A stretch of 64,000 nt of DNA, taken from assembly GCA_903908605.1 (NCBI GenBank), contig CAIVSQ010000507.1:1-64000 (forward strand), in the 5' to 3' direction. Below are positions 4,701 to 31,151 of this stretch, in pieces (position 1 is the stretch's first letter; every line of letters begins with the position of its first letter). The position numbers and the translations under genes were made by a program. The notes beneath the pieces are model-generated. The model was not told the DNA's origin. It made no database searches and saw only the letters and a list, made by a program, of their open reading frames with translations. The DNA comes from an uncultured Anaerolineae bacterium. GTDB taxonomy: Bacteria; Chloroflexota; Anaerolineae; Anaerolineales; Villigracilaceae.

Positions 4701-6629
4701 TTATTCCACCGTGGGCAAGTTCGATGGCAGCACCACCGTAAACTTGGTGCCCCGACCGAGCACTGATTCCACCCATACGCGACCAGAGTGATTTTCAACG
4801 ATTGATTTCACGATTGCAAGCCCCAATCCTGTCCCCCGGGTAGAACTTGGGGCATTGTTGGCACGGTAAAACTTTTCAAAAATGTGCGGCTGATCCGCGG
4901 GGGAGATGCCAATTCCAGTATCTGCCACTTCAAAAATAATCTGATTTGACTCACTACGCAGACTGACCTTGATACGGCCATTTTCAGGTGTGTACTTGAC
5001 CGCATTGACAAGCAGGTTGTCAATCACCTGACGCAGGCGCAACGGATTGCCGCGCATGACCGGCAAGTCCGGCGCAATATCAAAGATGATTTCTTGGTGC
5101 TTGTCTTCAATTTGATGTTGTAAATTATCGAGGGTATAACGTAAGATGGTACCAAACGCCACATCATCCTTCATCGCATCAAAACCAGCCTCAATTCGGC
5201 CCAGGTCAAGCAAGTCATTGATCAATTCTGTGATGCTGTGCGCGCTGACCTGAACGTGTTTTACAAATTCCTTTTGTTGTTGATTCAACGGGCCAACCCG
5301 GTCTAGCAGCTCTATGTAACCGATAATGGAAGTCAGCGGGGAACGCAAATCATGGGATATTGTGTGAACAAAGTCACTCTTCAACTGGTCCATCATTTTG
5401 AGGTGAGTAATCTCCTCCAGGGTAAGCACTGAACCGATTGCATGGATAGGGGTATATTGCGAATTATAGACCCTCCCATTTTCCAATGAGATTTCCTGGT
5501 TCTTAAGTGGGAGATCAAGAGCAGAATTGACCATTACTTTGAAGTCGGTGTTCTCAATGAATTCGGTTATTCGTTTTCCTATAACATCACTATCACCCAG
5601 GTCGAAAGCATTCCTGGCAGCCGGGTTGATTATCAACACCCGTTTTTCCTGATCCATGAGAATAACGCCATCCTGTATGTTCGCAAGGATAGTCTGAAGT
5701 TTTTCCCGCTCGCTTTCGGAGGCTGCATATGACCTGGCATTCTGAATTGCGATGGTGGCAAAATCAGCCAGCACGCTCATTAACAGCTCATCGTGCTGGG
5801 TAAATGACCGTTTTGGACTGCGGTTATCCACACCCAGGACACCGATCACCTGGCCGTTATAAGAGAGCGGCACGTAAACAAGCGCGTATACCAGGAAGGA
5901 TGTTTTGATTTTATTGGGGGAATCCTGACAAAAGGAAATCGGTTTTCCGGTCTGAATTACTTGACCGGCGAGCGAATCATTGACAGGTAAGCGGAATGTG
6001 TGTGCATCCTGGTCATCAAAATTACGGCTGGCACGCATGTACAGATCCTGCGTGGATTCATCCAATAGCAGCAAGTGGCCTTCCTCGGCGCTGGTCAACT
6101 CAACTGCTGCAGTAACGACACTGGTTAATACACTATCCAGATCCAATGAAGCAGCGATGGATCGGCTAAGATTTACCAGGGCTTCCATATCGCTGACCCT
6201 GGCTTCAAGTGAGGCCGTGGAACGTTTGACTTCACGGCGCACCCAATCACCTGTTTTTCTTGCGCGATTTTGGCTGTCCACAATGGACTGCATGATCAAG
6301 TTGATTTTTAATGGGGGAAATAAATAATCACTCAAACCGGCCCGCATGACCTGAATCACCTGATCTGGGTCATGCTTGAAAGCATAAAAAATAATCGGCA
6401 GAGTTGGAAATCGATCCAGGGTATGTTTTGCCAGATCCAGACCCGACTGGTCACCTAGCCGTTCTGAAACAACCAGGACAGCGGGGTTGATTTCGCGCAA
6501 GGCTCTTTCCAGGCCATCGGGATCCTTGACAACAACCGGGACAACACCAGCGGCACGTAATGCACGCTCGAGCAAATCAAGCGTGGAAGATGGTTCCATG
6601 GCAAGCAAAATGTAATCGATTGAGGACAT
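4701..6629 (-). CDS. Hybrid sensor histidine kinase: (pseudo)REC-GAF-PAS-HisKA-HATPase_c
   Basis: 642 aa; H-box DFVHTISHDLRSPLTSIIGYIELLD; N/G boxes DNLLVNAVKYTPENG, DTGIGISPADQPHIFEKFYR, GTGLGLAIVKSIVENHSG. Confidence 0.93.
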   Translation of the reverse strand: MSSIDYILLAMEPSSTLDLLERALRAAGVVPVVVKDPDGLERALREINPAVLVVSERLGDQSGLDLAKHTLDRFPTLPIIFYAFKHDPDQVIQVMRAGLSDYLFPPLKINLIMQSIVDSQNRARKTGDWVRREVKRSTASLEARVSDMEALVNLSRSIAASLDLDSVLTSVVTAAVELTSAEEGHLLLLDESTQDLYMRASRNFDDQDAHTFRLPVNDSLAGQVIQTGKPISFCQDSPNKIKTSFLVYALVYVPLSYNGQVIGVLGVDNRSPKRSFTQHDELLMSVLADFATIAIQNARSYAASESEREKLQTILANIQDGVILMDQEKRVLIINPAARNAFDLGDSDVIGKRITEFIENTDFKVMVNSALDLPLKNQEISLENGRVYNSQYTPIHAIGSVLTLEEITHLKMMDQLKSDFVHTISHDLRSPLTSIIGYIELLDRVGPLNQQQKEFVKHVQVSAHSITELINDLLDLGRIEAGFDAMKDDVAFGTILRYTLDNLQHQIEDKHQEIIFDIAPDLPVMRGNPLRLRQVIDNLLVNAVKYTPENGRIKVSLRSESNQIIFEVADTGIGISPADQPHIFEKFYRANNAPSSTRGTGLGLAIVKSIVENHSGRVWVESVLGRGTKFTVVLPSNLPTVE

Positions 6630-6648
6630 ACCTCAAATTCACCTTGGT

Positions 6649-7812
6649 TCAGGACCGGGACTGGGTTACCACTTGTTGCCCGAGGACTGAAAGAATTTCC
6701 TTCAGATCATTCCTGGTCTTATCCAGGGTCTGTTTCTGCCCGGCGGTAATTGCGCCCTTTTCTTCCGCCAATAACGAATCGAGCGATCCCAGCGATTTCA
6801 CCAGGCTGGAGCCAATCTCACGCTGCATACGCAGCACGGCCTCATTCATACGTTTTTCCCCTTGCTGAGCCGCTTCTGCGTTATGCGCGAGGGCGCGGAA
6901 CAAACGCGCATTAACCATGGAGATGGATGCGTAATCCGCGATGGCTTCAGAGAGGGTATGTTCACCTTCACCAAAAGGCTTTTCGGCTTTTCGGACAACA
7001 ATCAACAGACCAATGGCATCACTTTTAACTTTTACCGGCACTACCATGGCTGCCTGACCTAGTGCCGCAATTTTAAAGCGACGTAAGGGCTGCCCATGAA
7101 TCGACAAAGTTTCGCCGGAAGCCGAAACCAATTGACTTAGTCCATCATCAATCGGCTGGCCCAGCTTGCGTGCCAGTGCGTCGGGGAGGTTACGATGGGC
7201 TGCCAATACATAGGCATTACTCTTGTCGTCCTTGAGCATCAACCAACCCATATCCGCTTCTGTTACCGTTGTAACCGCTTCGACCAGTTTATCAAACAGC
7301 ACACGCTGATCAGTAATGGAAATCACTGCGCGCCCAACCGAGAAAATCGTACCGAGGTCACGTACACGGCGTTGAAGTTCCGCATTGGTCTGCTTGATTC
7401 TGGCGTCCAGAAGTTCACGCGAACGACTTTCACGCACATGCTTTAGTGCGCGTTCAACGCATGAAACCACCTCTGCCTCACGGGCAGGCAGCATAAGGTA
7501 ATCACTAGCGCCCAATCGAAAGGCCTGAATGACGCCGGCTTCCTGGCCTTTTTCCGCCATAACAATGATAGGCAAAGTCACATTTTGGGATTGCAAGGCT
7601 ACCATCAAATCCTTACCGCTGAGACCAGGCAGGTTCAAGTCAATCAGAATGACATCCGGCGATTGTTTAAGAACCTGCTGAATGGCACTTGCGCCATCCA
7701 AGGCCAGGCTCACATGGTAACCCATTGGTTTTAACGCCTGGCGCGCAATCAGGTCACCAGCAATCGGATCATTTTCGACAACAAGGATTTTTTCGGACGA
7801 GGTAGTAGCCAT
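6649..7812 (-). CDS. Response regulator receiver-GAF protein without recognisable output domain
   Basis: 387 aa; ILVVENDP...DVILIDLNLPGLSGKDL receiver; GAF-like middle region; helical C-terminus; upstream of and co-directional with the kinase. Confidence 0.88.
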   Translation of the reverse strand: MATTSSEKILVVENDPIAGDLIARQALKPMGYHVSLALDGASAIQQVLKQSPDVILIDLNLPGLSGKDLMVALQSQNVTLPIIVMAEKGQEAGVIQAFRLGASDYLMLPAREAEVVSCVERALKHVRESRSRELLDARIKQTNAELQRRVRDLGTIFSVGRAVISITDQRVLFDKLVEAVTTVTEADMGWLMLKDDKSNAYVLAAHRNLPDALARKLGQPIDDGLSQLVSASGETLSIHGQPLRRFKIAALGQAAMVVPVKVKSDAIGLLIVVRKAEKPFGEGEHTLSEAIADYASISMVNARLFRALAHNAEAAQQGEKRMNEAVLRMQREIGSSLVKSLGSLDSLLAEEKGAITAGQKQTLDKTRNDLKEILSVLGQQVVTQSRS

Positions 7813-9630: not shown

Positions 9631-11274
9631 ATGGATATGGATAATATACTTGGAATAAGCACGGCTGGTTGGTCAGATTCGGCGGATGCACCGTTGAGCC
9701 GTTTTCTGCCGCCAATTCCCGAAGGAACCAGCCGATCTTTTTTGGCCAGCCTGCCAGCATCAAATGCCTGGGTGCTTGACCCTTTTGCAGCCCTGCCGCG
9801 CTTACCTGTTGAAATGGCACGCAGCGGACAGCGCGTGCTGGTCACTGCCGGAAACCCGGTCAACCGCTTCCTGCTAGACCTGGCCGCTCACCCGCCGCGC
9901 GAACATGACTTGCAGGCTGCCCTGGCAGAAATGGCGATGACCCGCAAAGAAGGTAAGCGCCTCGAAACTCACCTGCTGGCTCTTTACAACACAATCTGTG
10001 AAAACTGTGGGCGAGTGCTGCCTGCCGAAGCTTTTTTATGGGAAGGCAAATCTGGCAAGCTGGTAGGACGTATCTATAATTGCAGCTGCGGAGACGGGGG
10101 TGAACATGAGGTCACACAAGCTGACCTGGACAATGCGGCTTTTTGGGCCCGTACGGATGGGTTGCACCGCTCCCGGGCACTCGAACGAGTAACGCCCGGG
10201 AACGACCCTGAACGGGGGGCTGTGGAAGAGGCGCTTCAATTTTACCCACCCAGGGCAGTCTACGCCCTGGGGACCATGATCAACCGGCTGGATAGCCTAT
10301 CCACATCAGTGGAACGCAGGCGTTGTATCAGCGCGCTGTTACTACATGCCGCCGACCTGGCCAACGCACTATGGCCTCATGGAAACGAACGACCCCGGCC
10401 GAGACAGCTCAGCTTTCCAGGTGTGTACCGGGAAAATAATGTATGGATGGCGCTGGAATCCGGCATCAAAGCTTGGGCGTCCTCGGAAAGCAGTGTTGCG
10501 CTAACGCTTTGGCCAGAGGACCCCCCAGAAAGTGGCGGAGTGTGCATATTTGAAGGACCACTGCGCGACCTGGCAGAAGACCTGCACGAACACTCATTTA
10601 AAGCCGTAGTAACTGCCATACCACGCCCCAACCAGGCTTTCTGGGCACTTTCCACATTGTGGGCGGGGTGGTTGTGGGGCCATGCTGCCGTGGGACCATT
10701 CAAAACAGTTTTACGCCGGCGCCGCTACGACTGGCAGTGGCATACCGAGGCACTCAGGGCGCTGCATCTCAACCTGGTCGAACTATTGCCCACCGAGACA
10801 CCCATTCTTGGCATGCTAGGGGAAGCCGAAGCTCCCTTTCTCAGCGCCGCCTTCCTGGCAGCCAAAACCAGCGGGCTGGATCTGATACACACAGATATAC
10901 GCAACGAGACAGGTACCGCCTTGTTTTTTTGGAAAACGATTCACAGAGATCCGAAGAAACAAGACAAAAAACCAAAGAACACCAAGAAAATATTAAAGCT
11001 AGATGTAAACTATACCCGCAAAATCATCCGGGAAATCTTGGAAGAACGCGGACAACCGGTGGCTTATTTACAACTTCACATTGCAATATTATCCGCCCTC
11101 GGGGATAAGGGAATGCTTGCTTGGGGCGATGAAATGATTTCCAATCTGGAAAAGAATATTCACACAGCACTTGAAGAGCACGATTTTACAAATATTGATG
11201 AGCATTCCGCTGTAGAAAACGGGCGCTGGGCACTCGAAAAATGGACCCGGCAGCAAACCTTAAAGGGACTGTAA
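9631..11274 (+). CDS. Zn-ribbon-containing DNA-methyltransferase-like protein with degenerate catalytic motifs
   Basis: 547 aa; VLDPFAALPRLPVEMARSGQRVLVTAGNPVNRFLL (SAM motif I-like), CENC...CSC Zn-ribbon-like, KAVVTAIPRPNQAFWALSTLWAGWLWG in the position of a DPPY-type motif. Confidence 0.6.
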   Translation: MDMDNILGISTAGWSDSADAPLSRFLPPIPEGTSRSFLASLPASNAWVLDPFAALPRLPVEMARSGQRVLVTAGNPVNRFLLDLAAHPPREHDLQAALAEMAMTRKEGKRLETHLLALYNTICENCGRVLPAEAFLWEGKSGKLVGRIYNCSCGDGGEHEVTQADLDNAAFWARTDGLHRSRALERVTPGNDPERGAVEEALQFYPPRAVYALGTMINRLDSLSTSVERRRCISALLLHAADLANALWPHGNERPRPRQLSFPGVYRENNVWMALESGIKAWASSESSVALTLWPEDPPESGGVCIFEGPLRDLAEDLHEHSFKAVVTAIPRPNQAFWALSTLWAGWLWGHAAVGPFKTVLRRRRYDWQWHTEALRALHLNLVELLPTETPILGMLGEAEAPFLSAAFLAAKTSGLDLIHTDIRNETGTALFFWKTIHRDPKKQDKKPKNTKKILKLDVNYTRKIIREILEERGQPVAYLQLHIAILSALGDKGMLAWGDEMISNLEKNIHTALEEHDFTNIDEHSAVENGRWALEKWTRQQTLKGL

Positions 11275-28051: not shown

Positions 28052-29776
28052 TCAGCCACGCCGTGCAAGCCAGTCAAGCAGTTGCTCGGTCGGCCAGGCG
28101 TTGATAATGTCGGCTGGGGTAAGCCAGGCGCGGCGGGCAATGGCCACACCAAAGGGAAGCATATCCAAGTCAGATTCAGAATGAGAATCGGTATTAATGC
28201 TGATGGGAATGCCCATGTCACGCGCACGGCGGGCATAGATATCCTCTAGATCCAGTCGGGCGGGATTGGCGTTGATTTCAAGGGCCACGCCAGTTTCCGC
28301 TGCGGCAGCAAGCACGGCATCCATATCCAGATCAGCACCCTCCCGGTCTGGGATGAGGCGTCCGGTGGGATGACCGATGATATCGACGTGCGGATTTCGA
28401 ATGGCATTGATCAGGCGCTGGGTGACCTTCTCCCGAGGCTGTCGCAAAGATGTATGTAGGGAAGCCAGAACCAGGTCGAGCGAAGCGAGAAAATCATCGG
28501 GGTAATCAAGCGAACCATCAGCGCGAATTTCAACCTCGGAGGCGTGCAGAATACGGATGGTATCGCCAAGCTCACGCTGGGCGGCCTCAATCTCGCGCTG
28601 CTGTTCGACATGGCGTTCCATGCTGAGGCCACCGGTAACACCCAGGCTAACGGAATGATCGGTAAAAGCAATAACACGCATGCCGCGTCGGGCAGCGGCA
28701 CGGGCCAGCTCCAGGATGGTTAATTTGCCATCCGACCAGGTGGAGTGGGTTTGCAGGTCAGCATGGATATCGGCAACCTCGATAAGACGTGGAAGGTTGC
28801 CCATTTTGGCAGCCTGGACCTCGCCGCGATCTTCACGCAGCTCGGGCGCGATCCAGGGTAATCCAATCGCCTGATAAACCGCCTCTTCCGTGGCGCAAAG
28901 AATCTCACCGGAGCCATCCGTGCGGGTAAGGGCATGTTCTGAGAGAGAAAGACCTTTTTCGAGGGCGAGTTGGCGCAACTGCACATTATGATCCTTGGAA
29001 CCGGTGGCGTACTGCAAGGCTGTGCCAAACCGTTCGGGCGGGTGAACCCAGAGCTGAGCGCGCAGACCATCCGCAAATTCGATGCTGGCCTTGGTTTCGC
29101 CTTTGCCAAGCACACGGATGACGCCAGGCAAAGTCGTAAAGGCAGCCATAACCGGGGTTGAATCGGCAGAAGCAACCAGGATATCCAGATCACCGACGGT
29201 GGAGCGCATACGACGCAAGGAACCAGCGGTGGAGGCAGCCACCACACCGGGGATTTTTTTGAGCTCAGAGATAATATGTTGTGCAAGCGGGTAGGCACGC
29301 CCAATGGGAATTCGCCCGGAACGGCGTGCGAGAGATTCAATCCCGAGCAAGATCTGTGCTTCTGATTTTTCGCCCATGCCAGGCAGGCTGCGTAATTTTC
29401 CAGCGGAGGCAACCTCGCCTAATTCTGCCAGGGTGGTAATACCCAGTTCCTTCCAAATGAGGGCAATCTTTTTGGGTCCCAAGCCCGGCACCTGCAGCCA
29501 TTCAGCCAGCGAGGGCGGGATTTCGGTTTTGAGGTTCTCAAGAAAACCCAGGCGGCCGGTGGAAAGAAGTTCGTCGATCTTTTCAGCAATGGCCTTACCC
29601 ACTCCAGGTATTTCGCGCAGCTTGCCTTCTTTCCAATACTCGCTGGCTGCACGACCAAGCGAGAGCAGGTTCTCGGCAGCCTTGCGGTAGGCTAGCGTGA
29701 CGTAAATCACCTCGCCCTTGATTTCGAGCAAGTTGGCAATCAACGTAAAAGTATCGGCAAGTTCACGGTTGTTCAT
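28052..29776 (-). CDS. polX: DNA polymerase/3'-5' exonuclease PolX (Pol X + PHP)
   Basis: EIPGVGKAIAEKIDELLSTG; GSLRRMRSTVGDLDILV; PHP motifs DLQTHSTWSDG, AFTDHS, INTDSH. Confidence 0.94.
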   Translation of the reverse strand: MNNRELADTFTLIANLLEIKGEVIYVTLAYRKAAENLLSLGRAASEYWKEGKLREIPGVGKAIAEKIDELLSTGRLGFLENLKTEIPPSLAEWLQVPGLGPKKIALIWKELGITTLAELGEVASAGKLRSLPGMGEKSEAQILLGIESLARRSGRIPIGRAYPLAQHIISELKKIPGVVAASTAGSLRRMRSTVGDLDILVASADSTPVMAAFTTLPGVIRVLGKGETKASIEFADGLRAQLWVHPPERFGTALQYATGSKDHNVQLRQLALEKGLSLSEHALTRTDGSGEILCATEEAVYQAIGLPWIAPELREDRGEVQAAKMGNLPRLIEVADIHADLQTHSTWSDGKLTILELARAAARRGMRVIAFTDHSVSLGVTGGLSMERHVEQQREIEAAQRELGDTIRILHASEVEIRADGSLDYPDDFLASLDLVLASLHTSLRQPREKVTQRLINAIRNPHVDIIGHPTGRLIPDREGADLDMDAVLAAAAETGVALEINANPARLDLEDIYARRARDMGIPISINTDSHSESDLDMLPFGVAIARRAWLTPADIINAWPTEQLLDWLARRG

Positions 29777-29783
29777 GGAATCC

Positions 29784-31151
29784 TCAATCAAGATCGGCAG
29801 GGAGAACTTCGGCAGCGACTTGTTGGATCAAAGTCCAAATATCAGCCAACCAAGTCAAATGTTCTGGCTTCATCAGAACAGAACGCAGGCAGGTGATGGT
29901 CGGGCTGTCGGGTAGCATTTCGGCAGGCAAATTGAAAAACTCGACAGGCAGGTTGGCAAGCGCCAGGTAGAGGTGTTTTTGCTCGGCGGCGGCGAAAAAG
30001 TGGCGGGACAGTTCGGAGGCTGCGCTGACAGAGGCAGCACGCGGCACCCAGAAAATGATATCCAGCTCAGGTGGAAAGGCAACCACAAAACGTGGATCCG
30101 CCTGGATTTTTTGCCAGAGGGAGAGAGCCGCGTTTCGCCCACTTTCCAGGCCCACGGCAAATTCACCACCAGGCACAAGGGGCAGTAGCTTGTGGGTAGC
30201 CCACAGCCCAACAGCAGTTGCGCCAGCGCGCGAGCACTCCAGGCTGATCTCGCCAAGATGAAGCTCGCTTGAACTGAAGTAGGTGTAGGGGGAATCATGT
30301 TTGTAGAAACGGCCAACGGATGGGTCGCGGAAAAGCACACACCCACAACCATAGGGCTGGAGCCCATGCTTATGCGGATCAACAACGATCGAATCAGCCT
30401 CAGACACGCATTCAAAAGCACGGGCAGTTTGCGGCGAGAGGTTGCCAGCCAGGCGAAAATAACCACCATAAGCAGAATCAACATGCAAGCGAAAACCATA
30501 CTGGTCACGCAAGCGCAGCAACTCAGGAAGTGGGTCGATGGAGCCAGTTGCGGTGGTACCCAGGGTGGCGACCAGGGTGCCGACTCCCCCCTGATCCAGA
30601 CGCTCCTGCAGGGCCTGCAAATCCATGCGGCCGTACAAATCATTGGCAACCGACTCGAATTTTAGATTTAGTACGGCACTGATACGGCTGTGGGTGTAAT
30701 GAGCCTGCCGGGAAGCCAGGATGGTGCCGGTGGGATCAAGCCGACCGGAAACCCACAGAGCCTCCAGGTTGGCCATCGTGCCACCACTGGTCAGGTGGCC
30801 CAGGAAGGTATCCCAACCAAACATGTGGGCGATTTCAGCGACGGCTTCCTTTTCCATCTGGGAACTTGCCTTGCCGCCATCGAGGGCATGATTGTTGGGG
30901 TTGATCCACATGGCGAGCATATAAGCCAGGCGGGCAACCGGATGGGGTGGCTTGAGCATTTGGCCGGCATACAGCGGGTGGAAATAGGGGTAATTATCTT
31001 GCATACGATCGGCGACCTGCATCAGGACAGTTGCCGCTGCTGGGTCAAGAGCAGGAGCACTAAATGGTTTAAGATCGGAAAAGCCAGTGTTAAGTTTTTC
31101 CAAGGCTGCAATTAAAACCTTAAGGGAATCGGTTTCAAGGTTGTTGGCCAT
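29784..31151 (-). CDS. PLP-dependent decarboxylase (group II family)
   Basis: 455 aa; HLTSGGTMANLEALWVSG; HVDSAYGGYFRL; SIVVDPHKHGLQPYGCGCVLF (PLP Lys). Confidence 0.9.
   Translation of the reverse strand: MANNLETDSLKVLIAALEKLNTGFSDLKPFSAPALDPAAATVLMQVADRMQDNYPYFHPLYAGQMLKPPHPVARLAYMLAMWINPNNHALDGGKASSQMEKEAVAEIAHMFGWDTFLGHLTSGGTMANLEALWVSGRLDPTGTILASRQAHYTHSRISAVLNLKFESVANDLYGRMDLQALQERLDQGGVGTLVATLGTTATGSIDPLPELLRLRDQYGFRLHVDSAYGGYFRLAGNLSPQTARAFECVSEADSIVVDPHKHGLQPYGCGCVLFRDPSVGRFYKHDSPYTYFSSSELHLGEISLECSRAGATAVGLWATHKLLPLVPGGEFAVGLESGRNAALSLWQKIQADPRFVVAFPPELDIIFWVPRAASVSAASELSRHFFAAAEQKHLYLALANLPVEFFNLPAEMLPDSPTITCLRSVLMKPEHLTWLADIWTLIQQVAAEVLPADLD

Follow-up and report, generated by a model that had tools for sequence, protein, structure and literature searches.

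A Zn-ribbon DNA methyltransferase relative with rewritten catalytic motifs, probably maintained as a non-catalytic core protein in Chloroflexota

Background

Catalytically dead methyltransferases with new roles, as named in the literature, are mostly eukaryotic (PMC1282579). In yeast mitochondrial transcription factor B, a bulky Tyr occupies the glycine loop, and motif IV is poorly conserved (PMC1282579). In the Type IIG proteins described in PMC4389544, the nuclease domain is N-terminal.

Here we analyze a gene located at positions 9631-11274 (+ strand) of the window, that is, the whole stretch of 64,000 nucleotides of DNA under study. This DNA comes from an Anaerolineae-type Chloroflexota assembly. 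The gene is an intact open frame with an ATG start and no internal stops, and encodes a protein of 547 amino acids. A preliminary description, made from the sequence alone, interpreted the product as an inactive or repurposed paralogue of Zn-ribbon methyltransferases, a reading that is now supported by homology, fixed motif loss, the lack of an alternative motif and purifying selection. The family is unnamed in every family library searched here, and no description of it was found in the literature searched. Pfam, NCBIfam and PADLOC models and PDB sequences gave no reliable match to the 547-aa protein, and all its PHROGs matches were above E 0.05.

Results

By profile comparison and predicted fold, the protein is a relative of DNA methyltransferases. 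In hhalign searches, the profile of the window's group aligned over residues 23-447 with one built from six active-type Zn-ribbon methyltransferases (E 2.9e-16), and the wider-family profile aligned with active Zn-ribbon methyltransferases at E 3e-37, each value coming from a single profile-profile comparison. The curated PF01555 profile did not match the 547-aa protein itself, and members of its order showed weak matches to DNA methyltransferase profiles of PADLOC and PHROGs, covering the region from motif I to the Zn ribbon (E about 0.001-0.07). Alignment-based searches of the phylum recovered diverged homologues of about 790-1000 aa. Among the phylum homologues, one (L072) exceeds the PF01555 cut-off and another (L070) is at the cut-off; the former also matches annotated plasmid DNA methyltransferases (best E of 3e-21 in tblastn and 5e-28 in blastp). 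A piece of an active-type Zn-ribbon methyltransferase relative is present elsewhere in the same genome as the window (G000:C532:12005-12547, E 3.1e-40). In one locus (L088:3347-6553), a frame of 1069 aa combines a methyltransferase-like part with an Fe-S/NAD domain of the dihydroorotate-dehydrogenase-B type, and might represent two genes.

The AlphaFold model of the 547-aa protein, built from nine input sequences, contains a Rossmann-type core (mean pLDDT 78.5, pTM 0.79), as the preliminary description would predict. In the model, the strand of residues 47-50 leads into the motif-I loop and then a helix (57-64), the strand 68-73 ends near N75-P76, and PRPN and a further helix (335-349) come after the strand 323-329; the altered motifs discussed below thus sit at the canonical strand ends for motifs I, II and IV. 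A fold search with this model returned, at the top, nearly exclusively SAM methyltransferases; as with the long form of the protein, no match had an E-value below 0.001, and the fold searches carry supporting weight only.

For comparison across the phylum, we used an alignment of 99 sequences, 92 from Chloroflexota family members and 7 from outside methyltransferases. The CENC...CSC insert, previously described as Zn-ribbon-like, was recovered in this alignment as C123-x2-C126 ... C151-x-C153 (9997-10089, + strand), with each Cys present in 90 of the 92 family rows. This four-cysteine ribbon follows LYxTxC, which fits the Zn-ribbon methyltransferase subgroup (PglXI/PDLC03312 kin). Residues 163-250 (10117-10380, + strand), which connect the ribbon to the second half of the fold, are helical according to the AlphaFold secondary structure, and in hhalign they align with the equivalent region of the active methyltransferases. 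The comparison with COG1743 proposed earlier holds for the general Zn-ribbon layout and fails for the DUF1156 (COG1743) domain, which was found neither in the 547-aa protein nor in its genome; among active enzymes, the protein's closest relatives belong to the PglX-type and Type II Zn-ribbon methyltransferases.

The motifs that define active enzymes are rewritten. The motif I equivalent, VLDPFAALPR (residues 48-57; 9772-9801, + strand), aligns with DPFCGSG of active methyltransferases and has lost the FxGxG loop, reading DPFAALPR. The DPFxGxG motif of the active Zn-ribbon enzymes maps to residue 50, with the same columns given by hhalign. The string first noticed in the single sequence lies at residues 48-82 (motif I to beta2), and the replacement of its glycine loop by AALPR is confirmed. 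In beta2 and the next loop (VLVTAGNP, residues 68-76; 9832-9858, + strand), alignment and model indicate that the acid following beta2 is lost and N75-P76 are invariant. The motif IV equivalent, AIPRPNQAFWALSTLWAGWLWG (residues 329-350; 10615-10680, + strand), replaces DPPY: when the protein is aligned with active Zn-ribbon enzymes, AIPRPN (residues 329-334) occupies the exact DPPY column. The DPP(Y/F) of these enzymes maps to residue 329 in all six sequences that have the motif, and hhalign agrees, which bears out the placement of AIPRP in the preliminary description. A complete catalytic motif, which would argue against a loss of function, was sought at all other positions of the 547-aa protein and was not found. 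The DPPE at residues 297-300 was considered as motif IV and rejected; its D varies among homologues. Thus, compared with an active N6/N4 methyltransferase (PF01555), the Rossmann-type core is present, and both motif I (FxGxG) and motif IV ((D/N/S)PP(Y/F/W)) are absent.

These changes are conserved in the lineage and are not an oddity of one sequence. Among 56 aligned homologues from the order and near kin, the second motif-I glycine is replaced in every case (P in 54, S or A in 2), and N75, P76, P331, R332 and N334 are invariant; the consensus of motif IV within the order is (A/S)-(L/I/V)-PRPN. Residues 329-350 show the highest conservation in the order (3.47 bits versus a protein mean of 2.35), with the best-conserved 15-residue segment, 333-347, reaching 3.60 bits, and the second-ranked segment is a basic stretch, FKTVLRRRRYDWQWH (residues 357-371; 10699-10743, + strand). 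In the 99-sequence alignment, the motif-IV column shows (D/N/S)PP(Y/F/W/H) exclusively in the outside methyltransferases (0 of 92 family members). The full DP(F/W)xGxG is found in the outside methyltransferases and in three of the 92 family members (L074, L081, L083), and other glycine-rich motif-I loops are retained in L069 and L073-L077. The partial motifs among early-branching members include DPWAGTG in motif I and, in motif IV, RPPY (L069), SPPR (L071), SPPG (L070), DPPR (L067, L121) and NPPQ (L119). This graded motif-IV series makes the alteration traceable across the family and rules out an alignment slip. Two very diverged members of 762-784 aa (L084:175-2460 and L136:6013-8364), from genomes of ~1.1 Mb, are almost devoid of methyltransferase motifs. 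Judging from the alignments, the motif changes are fixed in the family; outside the order of the 547-aa protein, the loss of activity is less certain because the early branches retain partial motifs.

Most of the homologues are longer, their chain continuing C-terminally into a winged helix and a domain that resembles Type II restriction endonucleases. In members from other classes, the latter domain has E, D and, in most cases, E-V-E at constant positions; the catalytic D...E-x-(E/K) is retained in most members of these classes and is replaced in the Anaerolineae members read, for example, by YALLASAVI in place of LFEVEWTAML. The domain matches plasmid proteins in tblastn, one of which is annotated as a Type II restriction endonuclease, and blastp gave an E-value of 5e-13. 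The PADLOC REase_II model matches these plasmid proteins at 3.8e-11 and 9.9e-15, and L071 itself at 8.5e-5. In the fold search with the long form, FokI ranked first (E 8.7e-3). The nuclease-like domains had no matches in PDB or Pfam.

Both the winged helix and the nuclease-like domain are missing from the genus of the window and its near kin. In the alignments, the 547-aa protein ends in a C-terminal tail (residues 438-547; 10942-11271, + strand) without either, and a scan of all frames of the window found no remnant of the C-terminal half downstream. These short forms comprise one clade (SH-aLRT 99). Given that the long members carry the nuclease-like half and the short forms are a single clade without a remnant, the ancestor was likely a single-chain methyltransferase-winged helix-nuclease fusion, presumably a working restriction-modification enzyme. 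Accordingly, the earlier observation that no restriction gene adjoins this gene is correct for the window and does not extend to the family, most members of which have a restriction-endonuclease-like domain in the chain itself.

Homologues were found as one copy per genome in 84 of the 90 genomes of the bacterial family to which the window belongs. In a family from another part of the phylum, 37 of 38 genomes have the gene, which is split across contigs in two of them; the genomes are mostly drafts or metagenome-derived, so that absence from a single genome can reflect incompleteness. In several lineages of the class, no strong match to the protein family was found. The search outside Chloroflexota was partial, covering plasmids, phages and one genome-collection scan, and therefore the family may reach further. 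For the closer pairs of homologues, dN/dS is 0.08-0.19, with two pairs near saturation (dS above 2); by this measure, the gene is under strong purifying selection. The combination of a retained fold, fixed motif loss and purifying selection is that of a pseudoenzyme.

In most of the Anaerolineales loci mapped, a divergent response-regulator/kinase gene pair lies upstream of the homologue; in the window, genes for a response-regulator histidine kinase and a response-regulator/GAF protein occupy 4701-7812, divergent from the gene analyzed here. The conservation of this pair across Anaerolineales speaks for vertical inheritance. In other classes (L073-L083), a TPR protein of ~290 aa is encoded near the homologue in ten loci, and DNA polymerase X within a few kb in six. 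A DNA polymerase X relative is also present in the window, at about 28052-29791. In one locus only, a helicase and an exonuclease-like gene, MrfA/MrfB-like by eye, lie directly downstream of the homologue (L070:4205-7736). Prediction of the function from the neighbors was rejected because the gene context differs between classes and is too inconsistent. The close active relatives are sporadic, with strong matches in about 7 of 41 genomes, and those on plasmids belong to loci of BREX-like or other defence types. Each of the 60 family genomes searched encodes one or more PF01555 methyltransferases that exceed the cut-off; two PF01555 enzymes, encoded by frames of about 360-400 and 400-480 aa, apparently occur in almost every family genome.

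Discussion

The best reading of these observations, with a probability of roughly 0.6, is that a fusion of methyltransferase and nuclease has become a core protein that lacks catalysis and probably binds DNA. Under this scenario, the vertically retained, single-copy Chloroflexota family descends from a Zn-ribbon DNA methyltransferase that shared its chain with a winged helix and a domain of the Type II restriction-endonuclease kind. A complete motif IV is present in no member examined. The window's order has additionally lost the SAM loop, the acid after beta2 and the catalytic residues of the nuclease, and the window's clade lacks the nuclease half altogether. What remains is a Zn-ribbon protein in the shape of a methyltransferase, in which a basic stretch is conserved and the pocket was first rewritten and then frozen. 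Such a protein would not bind SAM and would most likely bind DNA without methylating it, perhaps with a base or a DNA end lodged in the former target pocket, as a structural, regulatory or repair-related factor, analogous to mitochondrial transcription factor B. Given that the fold, the Zn ribbon and the basic stretch are kept and the rewritten pocket is frozen, a non-catalytic nucleic-acid binding protein appears to be the simplest interpretation. A more specific and more tentative version, which we consider possible rather than probable, is that this phylum-wide core gene derives from a domesticated restriction-modification fusion and encodes a methylation-independent DNA reader. Its nuclease may retain cutting activity in other classes of Chloroflexota, and would have been silenced in Anaerolineae and afterwards discarded in the window's clade.

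The best of the alternatives, although unlikely in our assessment, is that the protein assists a separate, active methyltransferase, either as its non-catalytic subunit or as its activator. A candidate partner would always be available, considering the PF01555 enzymes in all family genomes searched, and there are precedents for such subunits, namely, METTL14 with METTL3, Gcd10 with Gcd14 and DNMT3L with DNMT3 (PMC1282579). However, no methyltransferase gene was noticed adjoining a homologue in the loci mapped, and one genome (G104) lacks the gene yet keeps PF01555 methyltransferases; both are weak counterpoints. Somewhat less likely still, the invariant PRPN pocket could support a different reaction, or activity with another cofactor, which is conceivable: the former active site tops the conservation of the protein, beyond what a simply dead pocket would need. 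Nevertheless, a known catalytic signature is absent, both SAM-binding elements are lost, and a role in binding or folding predicts such conservation equally well.

A role in defence against phages or plasmids, for instance in sensing DNA modification and, originally, in guiding the fused nuclease, would accommodate the BREX-like and other defence-type plasmid loci of the nearest active relatives and the nuclease-like motif retained outside Anaerolineae. We nevertheless regard this as improbable: a near-universal, single-copy gene with a neighborhood constant across genera does not show the patchy pattern of defence, no defence genes were noticed beside homologues in the loci mapped, and the nuclease motif is lost in Anaerolineae, with the entire domain gone in the window's clade. 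That both catalytic sites are gone could also suggest a decaying pseudogene or a chance frame, but this explanation is effectively refuted by the low dN/dS, the residues invariant in 56 homologues and the presence in 84 of the 90 genomes.

In the present case, a bacterial phylum seems to have fixed a dead methyltransferase as a single-copy core gene, with intermediates documenting the loss of motif IV, of the SAM loop, of the nuclease residues and, finally, of the nuclease domain. Should the domestication version hold, the protein would represent a novel class of chromosome factor in bacteria, one whose base pocket is conserved. The family is a clear target for a search for function, and a caution that methyltransferase-like genes need not methylate.

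Among known systems, the family resembles the Zn-ribbon methyltransferases (PADLOC PglXI PDLC02541, MTase_II PDLC03312; PF01555), such as the Halorarius halobius plasmid protein WP_255152833, with which it shares the order of parts: motif I, the ribbon behind LYxTxC, a helical (Y/F)TxRN region and the motif IV column. Those enzymes, however, retain the motif-I glycines and DPP(Y/F) and belong to defence-type loci, whereas the window's family has lost both motifs and is stand-alone; the context of BREX PglX (pglZ, brxC, brxA/B beside the gene) is absent in the window and the related loci read. The C-terminal domain of the long homologues is homologous to proteobacterial plasmid proteins resembling Type II restriction endonucleases (REase_II PDLC03534; WP_137954020, WP_008652084) and shares with them the D...E-V-E motif; the plasmid proteins are separate polypeptides of about 420 aa, whereas the counterpart domain is eroded in Anaerolineae and absent from the 547-aa protein. 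In combining a methyltransferase and a nuclease-type domain in a single chain, the long homologues resemble Type IIG fusions; unlike these, they have the nuclease-like domain at the C-terminus, behind the winged helix, have lost the methyltransferase motifs and represent a vertical core gene, and the 547-aa chain has no restriction-endonuclease domain such as Type IIG and Type II fusions contain. With mitochondrial transcription factor B and other non-catalytic Rossmann relatives, the family shares the loss of the glycine loop and motif IV and the retention of the fold, probably also in a new role; mitochondrial transcription factor B differs in that it belongs to the rRNA dimethylase subfamily, is eukaryotic and has a known function.
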